Shown here: piece after piece, positions 6,664-55,283 of the stretch | Position numbering within the stretch: position 1 is the stretch's first letter | How the letters are laid out: each line of letters begins with the position of its first letter | Origin: Haladaptatus caseinilyticus | GTDB lineage: Archaea > Halobacteriota > Halobacteria > Halobacteriales > Haladaptataceae | Assembly: GCF_026248685.1 (NCBI RefSeq) | Contig: NZ_CP111036.1 | Coordinates: 744,001 to 808,000 of the forward strand | Reading direction: 5' to 3' | Length of the DNA: 64,000 nt | Position numbers and translations under genes: made by a program | Notes under the pieces: generated by a model | The model's database searches: none | Told to the model about the DNA's origin: nothing | What the model saw: the letters and a program-made list of their open reading frames with translations, nothing else

Positions 6664-7848
6664 CTACCGTATTCGACTCCGAGCAGTCGTGTTTGCGTCG
6701 ATCGGTTCGGTATCCGTTTTTGCCGCCCGTTCGATTCGCCGGATGACGGTCGGTTCGGCGACGACGAACACGGTATCCGCTGTCTCCAGCGGCCGACCAC
6801 GAAGCGGAAGCGTCTCCGTAGCGCCGTCAGACGGTCGGACTGCGACGACGGTTGCATCGATGCTTCCGACCGGAAGACCGACGAGGGCGCTTTCCGGTTC
6901 AACCGTCAGTACACCCATCGTTACGTCCGCGGAGCGAAGCCGGGTGACGAACTCGCGTTCCGGCCGTGTCCGCCGTGGAAGCGTCTCGAGTCGATACCGC
7001 TCGGTCGTGTCGAACGTCTTCGCGTCGTTTGCATCCACGGCGAGCGTCACCACGTCCCCGGCAACACCCCTGATTTCGCCGGTCGTGAGGCGTTCCGATC
7101 CAGTGTTAGTTCGTCGCCAGATAGCGACGGAATCGCCAGCACCGGCGCTGAATGCAGGGTCCGCTCGGATGGCGATAGCGACCGTTCCCGGGACGAGCAG
7201 CGGACCGAGTCCCGCGACTCGGCTGCCGAGTGCGAGATATTCGACCGTTCCATCCGAAGTGAGGTCGATATCGACGTGTCCGATGCCGTGGTCGTCCTCG
7301 AGTCGGGCGATGATTCGCTCTCGAAGTTCGGACACGGTGATTCCGCGTGGAAACACGAACGACGACCCAGCCAGCGCCGTTTTCGTTTCATCCGAAACAG
7401 TGTCATAGCCGTCGATGTCGCCGATGTTTTCGGGAATCGTGACCGTAACCATCCGCCCGACCGCGCCGACGATTCGACTCACGTCGTCGTCGAGTTTCTT
7501 CGCTCCCGAGAGGGCTGCCATGTTGGTCGTCAGTCGGTCGCCGACTCGCGCACCGACGACGGCGGTGATGGCCGCAACGACGAATGAAGTGATGTTTTTC
7601 GTCGCGTTGGGGATCGTCAGGACGTCCTGATTTCCGGCGGTGAAAAACGGTTGGAGCGTCTGCCATGTGCCCAATGAAACGCCGACCGCGCCGACGCCGG
7701 CAAGGATGGCTAGTCCAGCAGGCACGCGTTCCCGAGCGTACCATCGATGGACGAACGCAACCGCGCCAGCGACCGCTCCCGAAAGGATTCCGAGACCGAT
7801 AATTTGGACGAGCGCTCCCTGCGGATTCTGCGGGAGTGGCTGCATCAT
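6664..7848 (-). CDS. Membrane-anchored TrkA-C (RCK_C) domain protein, second of a pair
   Basis: 394 aa. Three hydrophobic segments at the N-terminus (about 15-33, 43-60 and 85-105) are followed by a soluble region. The C-terminal part (about 295-375) has the TrkA-C/RCK_C pattern (SALVGLPVGSIDATVVAVRPSDG, then TVFVVAEPTVIRRIE). No Rossmann NAD-binding motif is seen, so it should bind ligand only through RCK_C. The ATG overlaps the stop of the preceding gene as ATGATG, so translation is coupled. TrkA-C domains gate or regulate K+ and other ion transporters; here the membrane part is too small for a known pore. Confidence 0.75.
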   Translation of the reverse strand: MMQPLPQNPQGALVQIIGLGILSGAVAGAVAFVHRWYARERVPAGLAILAGVGAVGVSLGTWQTLQPFFTAGNQDVLTIPNATKNITSFVVAAITAVVGARVGDRLTTNMAALSGAKKLDDDVSRIVGAVGRMVTVTIPENIGDIDGYDTVSDETKTALAGSSFVFPRGITVSELRERIIARLEDDHGIGHVDIDLTSDGTVEYLALGSRVAGLGPLLVPGTVAIAIRADPAFSAGAGDSVAIWRRTNTGSERLTTGEIRGVAGDVVTLAVDANDAKTFDTTERYRLETLPRRTRPEREFVTRLRSADVTMGVLTVEPESALVGLPVGSIDATVVAVRPSDGATETLPLRGRPLETADTVFVVAEPTVIRRIERAAKTDTEPIDANTTARSRIR

Positions 7849-9035
7849 TCGACCACCTCCGCGAATCGACGGAGCGAATCGCGTGTTCCGACCACGTACA
7901 AGTTATCCCCGGCAGTGAGGGTCGTGGTGCCGGACGGTGCGACCGTCCAGTCGTTTGCCTGCTCGATACCTAACACCGCCACATCGTATGTATCGCGAAC
8001 GGAGAGACCACCTAACGCCATCCCTTCCAACTCGCTTCCGGGGGAAATTTGTACCCGCCGCCACTGCTTGCCCGCCTGTCGGAGTAAACGGACGAGTTCG
8101 AATTCGGGGTGAATCTCCCGCGACCGCACCCGAAGTTTCGTCGGTATACCGCCGATGAGGTCGCTCGCGTCGGCTTTCGGAACCGAAACCGTCACCCGGC
8201 CGTCCCCACCGGTCGTCGTCGGTGCGCGGGAAACGGAGCTCGGATCTTCGTCAGCGTCGTCCTCGGACTCATTTCCTTCCGTTTTCGCGCTAAGAACCGT
8301 CCCGACAACCTCGTCGTCACCGAGTTCGAGGGCGACTTCGTCACCACGTGCGATTCCCGTCGGTACGAGGGAATCGACCGATACCGCGCGACGGTTCGAA
8401 GGAAGGCGACGGGAAAGCGAACCTTCCGGAGGTGCGGCACGAACTGTCGCCTTTCCTCCCGTGTCGATCTCGACGGAAACGTCGGCGAGGTCGTACTCGG
8501 TTCGAAGTCGGTCCGCCAAGCGAGATTCCAACTCGGCGATGGGGAGATCTGCAGGAAACGTCCATTCGCCGTCACGGATCGCCGACCTGAGGTCATCGGT
8601 AAGCGGTGGATAACCATCGATGTCACCGACGTCGCCCGTCGTCCGAACACGAACCCGACCGAACCGGCCGACTCGTTCGATCACATCGCCGGAGAGACGA
8701 TGGTCCCGGAGTTGACGGAGACCCACCCGCCGGGGGAACGATGCGCCCATGGAGTCGCCCTTCGCGTGAGCGTACTGTGTCGCCAACATGACGACGATGA
8801 CTGCAACGACGACCACCGGCGATTCGACGACAGTGGGGTCGAGAAGACCCAACAAGCCACCCTGTACACCCGCGATGGCAACGCCGAGGACGACGACCGC
8901 GAATCCGGGGAGCGAAACGCTCGTCACGTACCGGAACACGAAGCCGAGACACCACGCGACGAGCGCCGGAACGACCCCCGTGAGCGCCCCGAGATACAGC
9001 CCGAGGAGCACAGCGACCGGGAACGAATAGTCCAT
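7845..9035 (-). CDS. Membrane-anchored TrkA-C (RCK_C) domain protein, first of a pair
   Basis: 396 aa, with the same architecture as its overlapping neighbour: an N-terminal membrane part (segments about 8-30, 35-60 and 72-90), a middle region containing the shared motif GDIDGYPPLTDD (the neighbour has GDIDGYDTVSDE), and a C-terminal TrkA-C-like domain (about 315-396). An acidic linker (about 255-275) separates the parts. The two proteins look paralogous and may form a heteromer. The gene is divergent from the K+ channel at 9176, giving a compact ion-homeostasis locus. Confidence 0.75.
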   Translation of the reverse strand: MDYSFPVAVLLGLYLGALTGVVPALVAWCLGFVFRYVTSVSLPGFAVVVLGVAIAGVQGGLLGLLDPTVVESPVVVVAVIVVMLATQYAHAKGDSMGASFPRRVGLRQLRDHRLSGDVIERVGRFGRVRVRTTGDVGDIDGYPPLTDDLRSAIRDGEWTFPADLPIAELESRLADRLRTEYDLADVSVEIDTGGKATVRAAPPEGSLSRRLPSNRRAVSVDSLVPTGIARGDEVALELGDDEVVGTVLSAKTEGNESEDDADEDPSSVSRAPTTTGGDGRVTVSVPKADASDLIGGIPTKLRVRSREIHPEFELVRLLRQAGKQWRRVQISPGSELEGMALGGLSVRDTYDVAVLGIEQANDWTVAPSGTTTLTAGDNLYVVGTRDSLRRFAEVVE

Positions 9036-9175
9036 ACGCCGGACTGTAGTGGCAGTTACAAAGGCGTACCGACAGAAATGTCAAAACGACGTTGTGAGCT
9101 GGTCGAACTAGCGGCAGCGGCGGTGGTCGGCCTCGCGTACCGTTCGGCCACCTGATTTATCGCACGGGAGGTAGC

Positions 9176-10384
9176 ATGGAGATTCACATGGGGCGAGTGG
9201 CGCGGGGGAGATTCGTCTCCGCTCGTATCGTCGTCTGGTTAACCATCGGCGTCGCGTTGCTTTCGATAGCGACCGGTCTCGTCTCCACTGGTCTCAGCGG
9301 CACCGGAGGAAACGGCGGGTTGTTCGGCGGAATCATTCCCGACGTCGTTCGGACGACGACAGCATACACTAGCACCATCGTCGGCTTTCTCCTCCTCGTC
9401 GCAGCCCTCGGCCTCCGCCGTGGCTTTCGTGCGGCCTGGTACGCGAGTACGATATTGGTCCTCATCGCCGCGATACATGGAATACTTCAATCGACGCCGT
9501 ACTCGCTCCTTCTCGTCGCCGGGTCGCTCGTCACCCTTCCGATGTTGATTCGGACTCGTCACCGGTTCGAACATCCGATCGAACCGACGACGACGCAAAT
9601 CGCCGCCGCATCCGCCGTCGTCGGAGCACAATTGTACGGGACTATCGGTGCGTACACACTCCGGCAGTATTTCGACGGCATCGACGGCAGCAATGCCCTC
9701 TTCGAAGCCTTTTATTTCACCGTCGTGACGGCGAGCACCGTCGGGTATGGCGATATCCAACCGACGGCACCATTCGCACAAGCGTTCGGAATGACCGTCA
9801 TCATCCTCGGAACCGGTAGTTTCGCGGCTGCACTGGGTGTTCTATTTGTGCCGATGGTGGAGAACAGTTTCGCAAGCGCCCTCGGTCGAACAACCGACAC
9901 CAACATCGAACTCATGGAAAATCACCTACTCGTACTCGGATACGGCCACCTGCTTACGGAATGGATAGTCGATGAGCTCGCCAACGGAACCGAATACGCA
10001 CTCGTCATCGACGACGAAGCGCTCGTCAACGAACTTCGGTCCAAAAACCGAACCGTCATCCATGGCGACCCTACCGACGAGGAGTTACTCGAACGGGTCG
10101 GCATCGAACGAGCACAGGCGGTGCTCGTCGCGACCGATGACGACGCCGACGACGCACTCACGGTGTTGACCGCTCGGCAGTTGAATCCCGACGTTCGAAT
10201 CGTCGCCGGTGCGACCGACCACGACAACGTGAAGAAATTCCGCCGGGCAGGAGCCGATATCGTGGTCAGCCCCGCCTTCGTCGGACGGATGCTGGTGAAG
10301 GCGGCACTCGGCGGGGAACACGTCGAAGAACTGGCCGACCAGTTAGCGGGAGACCCCCTGAACCAAACGTTGGACGATTTCTGA
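9176..10384 (+). CDS. Potassium channel with RCK (TrkA-N) domain
   Basis: 402 aa. Hydrophobic segments occupy about 18-40, 62-80, 88-122 and 143-225. The last of these contains the pore with the K+ selectivity filter TVGYGD (188-193). The C-terminal half (about 248-402) is a TrkA-N Rossmann domain with the dinucleotide motif GYGHLL (255-260), an acidic DDE after the second strand, and GDPTDEELLERVGI. This is the MthK-like Kch plan with extra N-terminal membrane helices. A GGAGGT ribosome site at 9167-9172 is only 3 nt from the ATG at 9176; ATG 9188 is the alternative. The gene converges with the HPP-USP gene. Confidence 0.88.
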   Translation: MEIHMGRVARGRFVSARIVVWLTIGVALLSIATGLVSTGLSGTGGNGGLFGGIIPDVVRTTTAYTSTIVGFLLLVAALGLRRGFRAAWYASTILVLIAAIHGILQSTPYSLLLVAGSLVTLPMLIRTRHRFEHPIEPTTTQIAAASAVVGAQLYGTIGAYTLRQYFDGIDGSNALFEAFYFTVVTASTVGYGDIQPTAPFAQAFGMTVIILGTGSFAAALGVLFVPMVENSFASALGRTTDTNIELMENHLLVLGYGHLLTEWIVDELANGTEYALVIDDEALVNELRSKNRTVIHGDPTDEELLERVGIERAQAVLVATDDDADDALTVLTARQLNPDVRIVAGATDHDNVKKFRRAGADIVVSPAFVGRMLVKAALGGEHVEELADQLAGDPLNQTLDDF

Positions 10385-10387
10385 TGT

Positions 10388-10422
10388 GGTCGTGCATCGC
10401 GGCTCAACCGTGATGCACGACC
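10388..10422. terminator. Long hairpin at convergent gene ends
   Basis: Two 15-nt arms (10388-10402 and 10408-10422) pair around a 5-nt loop with only one G-U pair. The hairpin starts 3 nt after the channel stop codon, and its right arm lies within the last codons of the opposing HPP-USP gene. It would form in transcripts from either direction, so a bidirectional terminator or 3'-end stabiliser is likely. Confidence 0.5.
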
Positions 10423-11906
10423 GCTACGTCACAGTCGATCTCGTGCATTCGCTCGAACGTCGGCGGCGAGATGAACCGCGATGCTGCGCTTCGGTCGGTG
10501 CTCGCGCCGATTATCATGAGGTCGTAGTGGTCGTCGTTCGCGGCGAGGAAATCCTCGATACTGCTCCGCGAGACGCGCGTTTCGAACACGCCCGAGAACG
10601 CCTCCACGAGGTCCGCGAGGGTCGATTCGGCTGTTCGGCGCTCCGCCTCACGGTCGATGCAGGTACAGACACTGACCGACCCCGACCGCCCAACCAGTCG
10701 CCGTGCGAAATCGATCATCGTGTGGGCGGTGTTGCCCGCTCGTCGGATCGGGACGAGAACGCGCTTCCATCGTCGACGAGGCGTTCCGTCGGGGGCTGGC
10801 CGATATGCGATTGCGTCCACGTTTCCGCGGAACAGTCCCCGGACGAACGGCGAGAGCGCGCCGTGTTTCTCCTCGTACGGGGTGACGATGAGGTCACAGT
10901 TCACTTCGCGAGAGGTGTTCAGAACCGTTTTCGCGGACGTTTTGCCGTCTCCCGCGACGACGACTTCACAGGGAACACCCATCCGCGTCCGGATTCGGTG
11001 TGCCTGCGTTTCGAGGCGGTCCGCGGCGACATCCGCCGCCTGTGCTTCGGCGGTTTCCCCCTCAGAAACGAGTTCCGCGGACTCCGGGTTCACGAGCGTG
11101 GGTTCGTTCCCGCCGTCGGAGGCCTCGATATCCCGTTCCGCTTTCTCGATGGCGTGTTCGTCCACGACGTCGATGAGAACGACTTTGCCCGCGTCGTGTG
11201 CCGCGGCCAGTTTTGCACCGAACATGGCCGCTTCCTCGGCGTCCTCGCCGCGCATCGGGACGAGGACGTGGTCGTCGCCTTTCGTCGAACGATAGAGATA
11301 CCGTGCCCGCCGTTCGTAGAACTCCCGTCGCCAGATGACGAACACGCCAGCGACGATACTGCTAGAGACTGCGATACCGGCGACGTACAGGAACCCTGAA
11401 AGAAAACTCCCCATTTCGCCAAAGGGAAACATCAGGACGAGTAGTGCGGACGAAAACGCGGTCGGCTGTTCGACGTTGAGCGACCACGTCACGAGCACCG
11501 TGAGGAGAATACCAAGCGCCGCCCCTCCGGCGTGAATCGTCATCGAGTCCGGCGGAACGTGATACAGATATCTGGCGGAGAACGTCAGTGCGACCCAGCC
11601 ACAGAGCGCCCCCGCAGTCATGCCGCCGACGAACCGAGTGGGAGAAGCGTACTTCCCTTCCGGGTCGGCGAACAGGGTGTACGTCCCCGATGCAAGCGGG
11701 GGGAAGAGCAAGAACGTTACGACGTTCACCGTGTTCGAGAGCCACGTGATGACCGCAATGATGATGGGTGCGACCACCAGTATCGTGAGCCGAGTGAGGT
11801 TTCGAGTGTGTTCGACCCACTGGGTGAAATGCTGAATTTCCCGCCGTTCGAACCGGCGAATGCGCCGAAGTGCCGCGTGATAGCGCATACGCAGGTCATC
11901 AAGCAT
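10404..11906 (-). CDS. HPP family membrane protein fused to two universal stress (UspA) domains
   Basis: 500 aa. The N-terminal part (about 35-200) has at least four hydrophobic helices and an HPP-like pattern (FLLFPPLASGTYTLFADPEGKYASP). The C-terminal half carries two UspA-like domains (about 210-345 and 375-500), the first starting DDHVLVPM and the second WKRVLVPI. Usp domains often bind ATP and sense stress. I start at the ATG at 11906 because the family-like sequence begins at MLDDLRMRYH; an upstream ATG at 11963 would add 19 unrelated residues. Placement beside a K+ channel suggests a role in ion or osmotic stress. Confidence 0.78.
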   Translation of the reverse strand: MLDDLRMRYHAALRRIRRFERREIQHFTQWVEHTRNLTRLTILVVAPIIIAVITWLSNTVNVVTFLLFPPLASGTYTLFADPEGKYASPTRFVGGMTAGALCGWVALTFSARYLYHVPPDSMTIHAGGAALGILLTVLVTWSLNVEQPTAFSSALLVLMFPFGEMGSFLSGFLYVAGIAVSSSIVAGVFVIWRREFYERRARYLYRSTKGDDHVLVPMRGEDAEEAAMFGAKLAAAHDAGKVVLIDVVDEHAIEKAERDIEASDGGNEPTLVNPESAELVSEGETAEAQAADVAADRLETQAHRIRTRMGVPCEVVVAGDGKTSAKTVLNTSREVNCDLIVTPYEEKHGALSPFVRGLFRGNVDAIAYRPAPDGTPRRRWKRVLVPIRRAGNTAHTMIDFARRLVGRSGSVSVCTCIDREAERRTAESTLADLVEAFSGVFETRVSRSSIEDFLAANDDHYDLMIIGASTDRSAASRFISPPTFERMHEIDCDVAVVHHG

Positions 11907-11996
11907 ACGAAAAACTGCGCCATTCGAGAATAAATGCGTTCTGTTACTGAGAGAGGGTGACACCCAAAGGAAATGAAGTCACCCGATGCGGGGTAG

Positions 11997-54623: not shown

Positions 54624-55283
54624 ATGCGATTTGTTATCGTGGGTTCTGGACGAGTCGGATTACGAACCGCCCGAGTGTTGACCGAGGAGGGTCACGACCT
54701 CGTCATCGTCGAGGACGACCCGGACAAGGTCGAACGTGCGCGCAAGGAAGGGTTCGAGGTCATCGAAGGCGACGGGTCGGACGAGAACGTGCTGACCGAG
54801 GCCGGTCTCGACTCGGCCGACGCGATCGGTGGGTTAACCGGCGACCTGAACGTGAACTTCGCGGCATGTATGGTCGGGAAACATCACGGCTGTCGAACCG
54901 TCATGCGCATCGACGCGGATTATCGGGAAGACATCTACCACAAGTTCGCGGGCGACGTGGACGAAGTCATCTACCCCGAGCGCCTCGGCGCGGCTGGAGC
55001 GAAAACCGCCCTCCTCGGCGGCGATTTCGACGTTATCGCGGATTTGACGGCGAATTTGCAGTTGACGACGATAACCATTCCGGAGAACTCCCCCCTCGTC
55101 GGTACACACGTCATGGCAGTCGAGCTGCCGACCGACGCGCGAATATACGCCCACGGACGGTCACACGAACGGATGACGATACCGCTTCCCGGAACGGCGC
55201 TCGAAGGTGGCGACCGTGTCGCGCTCATCGCCGCACGGGATGCACTCCCGGCAGTGCGGGAACGATTACAAGGGTCAGCGTAG
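54624..55283 (+). CDS. trkA: TrkA family potassium-uptake regulator (RCK N+C)
   Basis: 219 aa. TrkA-N Rossmann domain with GSGRVGLRTAR (8-18) and acidic EDDPDKVERAR after the second strand; GDGSDENVLTEAG and a TrkA-C-like domain (about 135-219). It binds NAD(H)/ATP and gates a Trk/Ktr K+ transporter. No membrane subunit (trkH) is adjacent. Two TrkA-C membrane proteins and a K+ channel lie at 6.6-10.4 kb. Confidence 0.9.
   Translation: MRFVIVGSGRVGLRTARVLTEEGHDLVIVEDDPDKVERARKEGFEVIEGDGSDENVLTEAGLDSADAIGGLTGDLNVNFAACMVGKHHGCRTVMRIDADYREDIYHKFAGDVDEVIYPERLGAAGAKTALLGGDFDVIADLTANLQLTTITIPENSPLVGTHVMAVELPTDARIYAHGRSHERMTIPLPGTALEGGDRVALIAARDALPAVRERLQGSA

Follow-up and report, generated by a model that had tools for sequence, protein, structure and literature searches.

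A tandem gene pair for RCK C-lobe proteins with predicted membrane parts, and the neighbouring Kch-type channel gene, in Haladaptatus and related haloarchaea

The C-lobes of RCK domains normally dimerise around a small ligand, and the closest described systems carry them in different ways. The channel MthK has a full RCK domain, KhtT and CpeA are separate RCK_C subunits of K+/H+ antiporters, and Escherichia coli Kch presumably has an RCK N-lobe without a C-lobe. Haloarchaea keep very high cytoplasmic KCl, and the control of their K+ channels is little studied in the papers found. Here we describe a locus in a 64,000-nucleotide stretch of Haladaptatus caseinilyticus DNA (the whole stretch analysed is called the window), at which two overlapping genes, P2 and P1, encode RCK C-lobe proteins with predicted transmembrane (TM) helices and are divergent from the gene of a Kch/MthK-type K+ channel. 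The host genome, of 4.8 Mb, is haloarchaeal, and the closest named loci are from Haladaptatus. The P2-P1 pair is a genuine family of two genes, found in the window's order. It is quite possible, though short of an even chance, that P2 and P1 together make up a membrane-anchored RCK_C sensor, of which both are obligatory subunits, and that this sensor modulates the Kch-type channel and possibly further cation transporters. No paper on the pair was found in a literature search in which subscription journals were thinly covered; the one match for a TrkA C-terminal protein in Halobacterium is a transcription regulator.

P2, the first gene of the pair, lies at 7845-9035 on the minus strand and encodes 396 amino acids; P1, its paralogue, is the second gene (6664-7848, minus strand, 394 amino acids). 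The stop of P2 overlaps the start of P1 by 4 nucleotides (7845-7848, minus strand). An overlap of 1 or 4 nucleotides is seen at 37 of 80 named loci, one P2-P1 gap (-1803, from a mispicked open reading frame, ORF) having been dropped from the spacing data, and we infer translational coupling of the two genes across it. An initial annotation of the window had described overlapping paralogues with a membrane part and a TrkA-C domain, sharing the motif GDIDGY, lacking a Rossmann domain and divergent from a TVGYGD channel, and all of this is borne out. TrkA_C is clear in P2 (E 1.4e-12) and weak in P1 (E 0.0015, under the Pfam cut-off) when the window proteins are scanned with Pfam; it is found at E ≤ 1 in 52/52 P2 and 37/37 P1 family members, and the fold of P1, described below, agrees with it. 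GDIDGY is common to both proteins. TrkA_N, the Rossmann N-lobe, was detected neither in the window P2 and P1 nor in the match lists of the 52 P2 and 37 P1 family members. These sets, like that of the 38 channels used below, are subsets of the collected loci, thinned for similarity. Chance ORFs are ruled out, since the genes are conserved in many genomes.

The spread of the genes was followed in 117 genomes of the order, of which 87 have P2 matches, 84 P1 matches, 115 members of the channel family and 72 the HPP-Usp protein encoded on the other side of the channel. Of 392 genomes of the phylum, 67 were matched by a profile of the TM and middle part of P2 (A5), and every one of these belongs to the window's order. 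Beyond the phylum, coverage consisted of a scan of genome contigs and a plasmid collection; the best 80 of the 158 relatives from the contig scan, which were kept, have haloarchaeal names, Haloferax species among them, or general archaeal titles. At the 80 named loci, which were chosen by P2 similarity, P1 adjoins P2 in tandem in every case. For part of the genomes the genes were called by our own ORF rule, which failed in part for locus L122; ORF clustering merged MinD-like and HerA-like genes in one cluster, and three loci (L161, L165 and L170) stand at the ends of contigs or on short ones.

Domain order is alike in the AlphaFold models of P2 (mean predicted local distance difference test, pLDDT, 83.1; predicted template modelling score, pTM, 0.37) and P1 (84.1 and 0.39): three TM helices, an alpha/beta domain, a small beta-barrel and an RCK C-lobe. 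The arrangement of the domains in the models is unreliable, because pTM is low. In P2, on the minus strand, the membrane part covers residues 1-100 (8736-9035), the alpha/beta domain with the GDIDGY motif residues about 105-203 (8427-8723), the small beta-barrel residues about 204-300 (8136-8426) and the RCK C-lobe residues 307-396 (7848-8117). The P1 C-lobe, at residues about 294-378 (6715-6969, minus strand), is shortened. On structure comparison of the models, P2 307-396 aligns with MthK 244-335 (best Z 14.6, root-mean-square deviation (rmsd) 2.5, 89 residues aligned), and the P1 C-lobe aligns with RCK C-lobes (best Z 12.2, rmsd 1.7, 72 aligned). The top Foldseek match of P2 is KhtT; its whole-chain alignments have rmsd 10-16, and therefore only the C-lobe match was used. 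Profile comparison shows the two proteins to be homologous in their middle domains (probability 98.6%, E 6e-16). The small beta domain resembles RcpC weakly: Pfam RcpC matches 23/52 P2 (best E 0.00098) and 3/37 P1 (best E 0.016), and the RcpC-like structure 9gzr_A aligns with P1 214-302 (Z 8.2, rmsd 3.5, 89 aligned). RcpC was not returned in profile searches of solved structures with the middle domains of P2 and P1; the best match was at E 0.29 for P2, and P1 matched the SMUBP-2 beta-barrel at 4.8e-5.

The divergent channel gene (9176-10384, plus strand) encodes 402 amino acids comprising a pore (Ion_trans_2, E 3e-11), the TVGYGD selectivity filter at 9737-9754 (plus strand), near-invariant among channel relatives, and an RCK N-lobe (TrkA_N) at 9929-10273 (plus strand). 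Its start may instead be the ATG at 9188, a conserved Met. No TrkA_C was found in the window channel by the Pfam scan, a detail missing from the initial annotation, and the pair-linked relatives agree: Ion_trans_2 and TrkA_N each occur in 38/38 and TrkA_C in 0/38. The channel aligns with MthK 32-257 (E 1.4e-28), and in the alignment it has Gly and Thr at the positions of the two Ca2+-site glutamates of the MthK N-lobe. The NCBIfam family PRK10537 (Kch) is its best family (E 2.6e-58, 197.9 bits, below the 425-bit equivalog cut-off), and the E. coli Kch structure 1id1 matches its N-lobe. Pfam DUF7126 also matches in 36/38 channel relatives; because these matches fall inside the RCK N-lobe, DUF7126 may be an RCK-like Rossmann family. 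At locus L155 (4541-6169), a 151-amino-acid ORF similar to the channel N-lobe is convergent with a full channel, and similar short second channel matches are present in three related genomes (G048, G037 and G025).

P2 and the channel are separated by a divergent intergenic region of 140 nucleotides (9036-9175), which measures 51-224 nucleotides across 77 loci. The channel lies within 1 kb of P2 at 77 of the 80 named loci; no link other than P1-P2 is better conserved. A set of 82 genomes not chosen by P2 similarity was also counted (the 87 with P2 matches minus 5 with only weak ones, best E 4.6e-10 or worse); one of them, G112, holds only a distant-type copy. In 58 of these the genome's best channel match is within 1.2 kb of P2, divergent from it in 56 and co-directional in 2. 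It is within 6 kb in a further 4, at a greater distance in 9, on a different contig in 9 and not listed in 2; as only the best match per genome was counted, a second nearby channel could be missed. In three of the four cases within 6 kb (L167-L169) a Na+/H+-exchanger-like gene is labelled beside the channel, and in the fourth (L128, genome G014) the gene in like position clusters with an exchanger; the exchanger-like gene is inserted between P2 and the channel and reads with the channel. At L124 and L160 a Na+/H+ exchanger gene faces the pair in convergent orientation, and the best channel match lies at another place. The channel has HPP-Usp within 1 kb at only 35 of the 80 loci.

Evolutionary distances were compared between the genes of the locus. 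Distance matrices of the channel correlate with those of P2 at 0.870 and of P1 at 0.874 (75 loci), and those of P1 with P2 at 0.892 (80 loci); as too-short ORFs were dropped, 75, 36, 43 and 67 of the 80 loci were kept for channel, HPP, UDP and MoaD, respectively. On the 32 loci common to all, the values are 0.85 for channel-P2, 0.82 for channel-P1, 0.74 for channel-HPP and 0.76 for channel-UDP. In 1000 resamplings the excess over channel-HPP was zero or less 21 times for channel-P2 and 3 times for channel-P1. Channel, P2 and P1 are a plausible unit, because they adjoin in 58/82 genomes and channel distances track those of P2 and P1 better than those of HPP-Usp. HPP-Usp is optional: its inclusion in the module is unsupported, in view of its place within 1 kb of the channel at 35/80 loci and a channel-HPP partial correlation, given P2, of 0.17.

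A natural loss was seen in genome G031 (locus L130, 6200-8200), where P2 is deleted except for its start and a P1 remnant is 95.6% identical to locus L031 of Haladaptatus litoreus. The flanking HPP, MoaD, SurE and GNAT genes of G031 and L031 are 93-97% identical, with synonymous divergence (dS) of 0.21-0.33, and the channels are 59% identical with dS 1.08. The nearest relative of the G031 channel among 293 genomes is 66% identical and belongs to the same genus. Relaxed evolution was considered as the cause of the low identity and rejected, since dS is raised too; the raised dS points to allele replacement. G031 has thus lost its native pair and carries a foreign or replaced channel allele, a case that counts in favour of a link between pair and channel.

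Conservation is distributed differently in the two proteins. In P2, TM1 and TM2 are the most conserved stretch (mean entropy 0.84 and 0.83, vs 1.35 for RCK_C), and for this reason the TM part is probably more than a membrane anchor. In P1 variability is highest in the TM part (1.81), and the soluble parts are conserved (1.14 and 1.18). The two subunits do not look interchangeable, and P2 would be the likelier coupling subunit of the pair. TM1 and TM2 of P2 are also more conserved than the channel pore (1.06), as expected if they formed a pathway of their own. This fits an alternative in which the pair has no relation to the channel and is self-contained. It would then act as a membrane sensor of a general kind, or else as a small heteromeric transporter whose 3+3 TM helices are gated by the RCK C-lobes of the pair itself, with the channel as no more than a long-standing neighbour. 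No TM transporter family was recognised, however, for P2 and P1 in the domain scan of the window or in the P2 family scan. We regard such a system as rather unlikely, if to be taken seriously. The distant P2-P1 copies (L111-L119) are a second kind of pair, about 29-35% identical. In the four such pairs scanned, TrkA_C at E ≤ 0.1 is found in 0/4 P2-like and 4/4 P1-like proteins, and a fifth distant P2-like protein scanned is also without it.

For the sensor that we tentatively propose, P2 and P1 would pair as a heterodimer below the membrane, as suggested by the usual dimerisation of RCK C-lobes around a small ligand. Ligand binding would shift the arrangement of P2 and P1, and TM1 and TM2 of P2 would relay the signal onward. 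Where the locus has its usual form, the sensor would act on the divergent Kch-type channel, with its N-lobe and no C-lobe; in some genomes a Na+/H+ exchanger or a different transporter could take the place of the channel. Modulation by the pair would be optional, as the channel is also found, and presumably functions, in its absence.

Several observations weigh against control of the channel by the pair. A MoaD-like gene, apparently unrelated, is within 1 kb of P1 at 68/80 named loci; adjacency alone therefore proves little and can be mere inheritance. The distance correlations are moderate evidence, for tight linkage with exchange would give the like. At nine loci with distant copies a channel match was found in 0/9, and several of them adjoin HerA-like (HerA/DUF87-like), MinD-like or type II/IV secretion/pilus ATPases. 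Four plasmid records are annotated with TrkA C-terminal domain-containing proteins; two of these copies, in Natrinema, sit among cation:proton antiporters and ion transporters, and the other two have no cation channel or antiporter alongside. Some chromosomal pair loci are beside NFACT, aminotransferase or Hef-like helicase genes. The channel in turn is present without an intact pair at 18 loci and in genomes G090, where channel and HPP-Usp are present and the pair is absent, and G031; at L141 and L148 it adjoins MoaD and the pair is absent. The channels of these 20 have TrkA_N in 20/20 and TrkA_C in 0/20. The pair is thus optional for the channel, not obligatorily tied to it, and is also used elsewhere. 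That the pair is the unit which moves, plasmid and distant copies carrying both genes without this channel, is what a self-contained system would give. Against such a system are that the channel correlates in distance more closely with the pair than with its other neighbour HPP-Usp, and that channel adjacency is second only to the P1-P2 link. The suggestion of the initial annotation that the pair is an accessory gating module for the channel is reasonable and stands in part, on the constant tandem, the position beside the channel and the shared distances; the MoaD-like neighbour weakens it, and pairs without channel and channels without pair speak against it. The annotation had itself counted against this suggestion either scattered genes or a pair without any K+ channel or transporter nearby; the second of the two applies in that the pair occurs without this channel nearby, at the distant loci, in two of the four plasmid copies and at the loci with a housekeeping gene as immediate neighbour.

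The matches to MthK also raise the question of a split gating ring, in which P2 and P1 provide in trans the C-lobe missing from the channel, so that channel N-lobes and P2/P1 C-lobes make one MthK-like ring. The MthK segments matched by the channel (32-257) and by P2 (244-335; profile match 258-332) are nearly complementary halves, and the absence of TrkA_C from all 38 pair-linked channels is in accordance with it. However, TrkA_C is equally absent from channels of genomes without an intact pair, the structure 1id1 of E. coli Kch likewise shows an N-lobe, and the helix which P2 itself has before its C-lobe overlaps the tail of the channel. Because pairless channels lack the C-lobe too, its absence characterises the channel family and does not indicate that P2 and P1 must complete it. 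Among 94 neighbour ORFs of the 18 pairless channel loci three have TrkA_C, and none is labelled P2 or P1. An obligatory split RCK is rejected, as pairless channels have identical domain content, and the split ring in general is improbable. It is likewise doubtful, with a small chance, that a ring of channel N-lobes and C-lobes of the membrane-anchored P2-P1 heterodimer is shared in some lineages only. If true, a shared ring would give a K+ channel a plug-in form of allosteric control, the sensor being coupled to the pore directly by the TM contact of P2 TM1/TM2.

With regard to the ligand, the folds closest to the P2 C-lobe include RCK_C structures bound to cyclic di-AMP (c-di-AMP), namely KhtT, KtrA and BusR, and c-di-AMP is essential in Haloferax volcanii, its targets being unknown in 2019 (PMC6741144). 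The RCK C-lobes of P2 and P1 could thus be c-di-AMP receptors. For c-di-AMP-binding RCK_C domains a signature, (I/L)(I/L)x2Dx1Rx5N(I/L)(I/L), is given in PMC10117811. The signature was found in 0/52 P2 and 0/37 P1, also when V was allowed at the hydrophobic positions. P2 keeps only the Arg, with Asp and Asn lost, and the Arg stretch is missing from P1. As the signature is absent, a c-di-AMP receptor counts only as a minor alternative, and a very improbable one.

HPP-Usp (10404-11963, minus strand) is convergent with the channel; an internal ATG at 11906 is the end point given in the initial annotation. The first Usp domain of the HPP/double-Usp protein named there is clear, whereas HPP falls just short (27.0 bits vs a cut-off of 27.2) and the second Usp is weak (E 0.002). 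At L129 (9803-13741), in a pairless genome, two related genes lie between HPP-Usp and the phosphorylase gene; a scan of one of them identified a ClC-type chloride channel with CBS domains. Another RCK protein is encoded in the window at 54624-55283 (plus strand); its 219 residues cover one of the genome's TrkA_C matches and read like a KtrA-type RCK protein.

P2-P1 is a widespread RCK_C module of two genes, order-specific and with a TM part of its own; beside a C-lobe-free channel, it is a concrete and deletable candidate for control of K+ channels in haloarchaea. It shows one way in which the RCK ligand-sensing lobe is employed without the Rossmann lobe and attached to the membrane. Relative to known systems, the locus recalls MthK in that the pore and N-lobe of the channel and the C-lobe of P2 each match a part of it; in MthK the RCK domain is complete, whereas here the C-lobe is either carried by other polypeptides or missing. 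The window channel is like E. coli Kch in having an N-lobe without a C-lobe, in its best family and in the match to 1id1, and differs in scoring below the equivalog cut-off; no P2- or P1-like partners of E. coli Kch are known. With RcpC/CpaB of Tad pilus assembly the likeness is confined to a weak match of one small beta domain in P2 and P1. KhtT and CpeA are also RCK C-lobes without a Rossmann lobe beside a cation transport gene. These are soluble and antiporter-linked, whereas P2 and P1 have three predicted TM helices each and, in the window, a channel as neighbour; they are moreover two paralogues with other middle domains and no c-di-AMP signature. P2-P1 resembles the separate RCK_C subunits KhtT and CpeA, without their soluble, antiporter-linked and c-di-AMP features.

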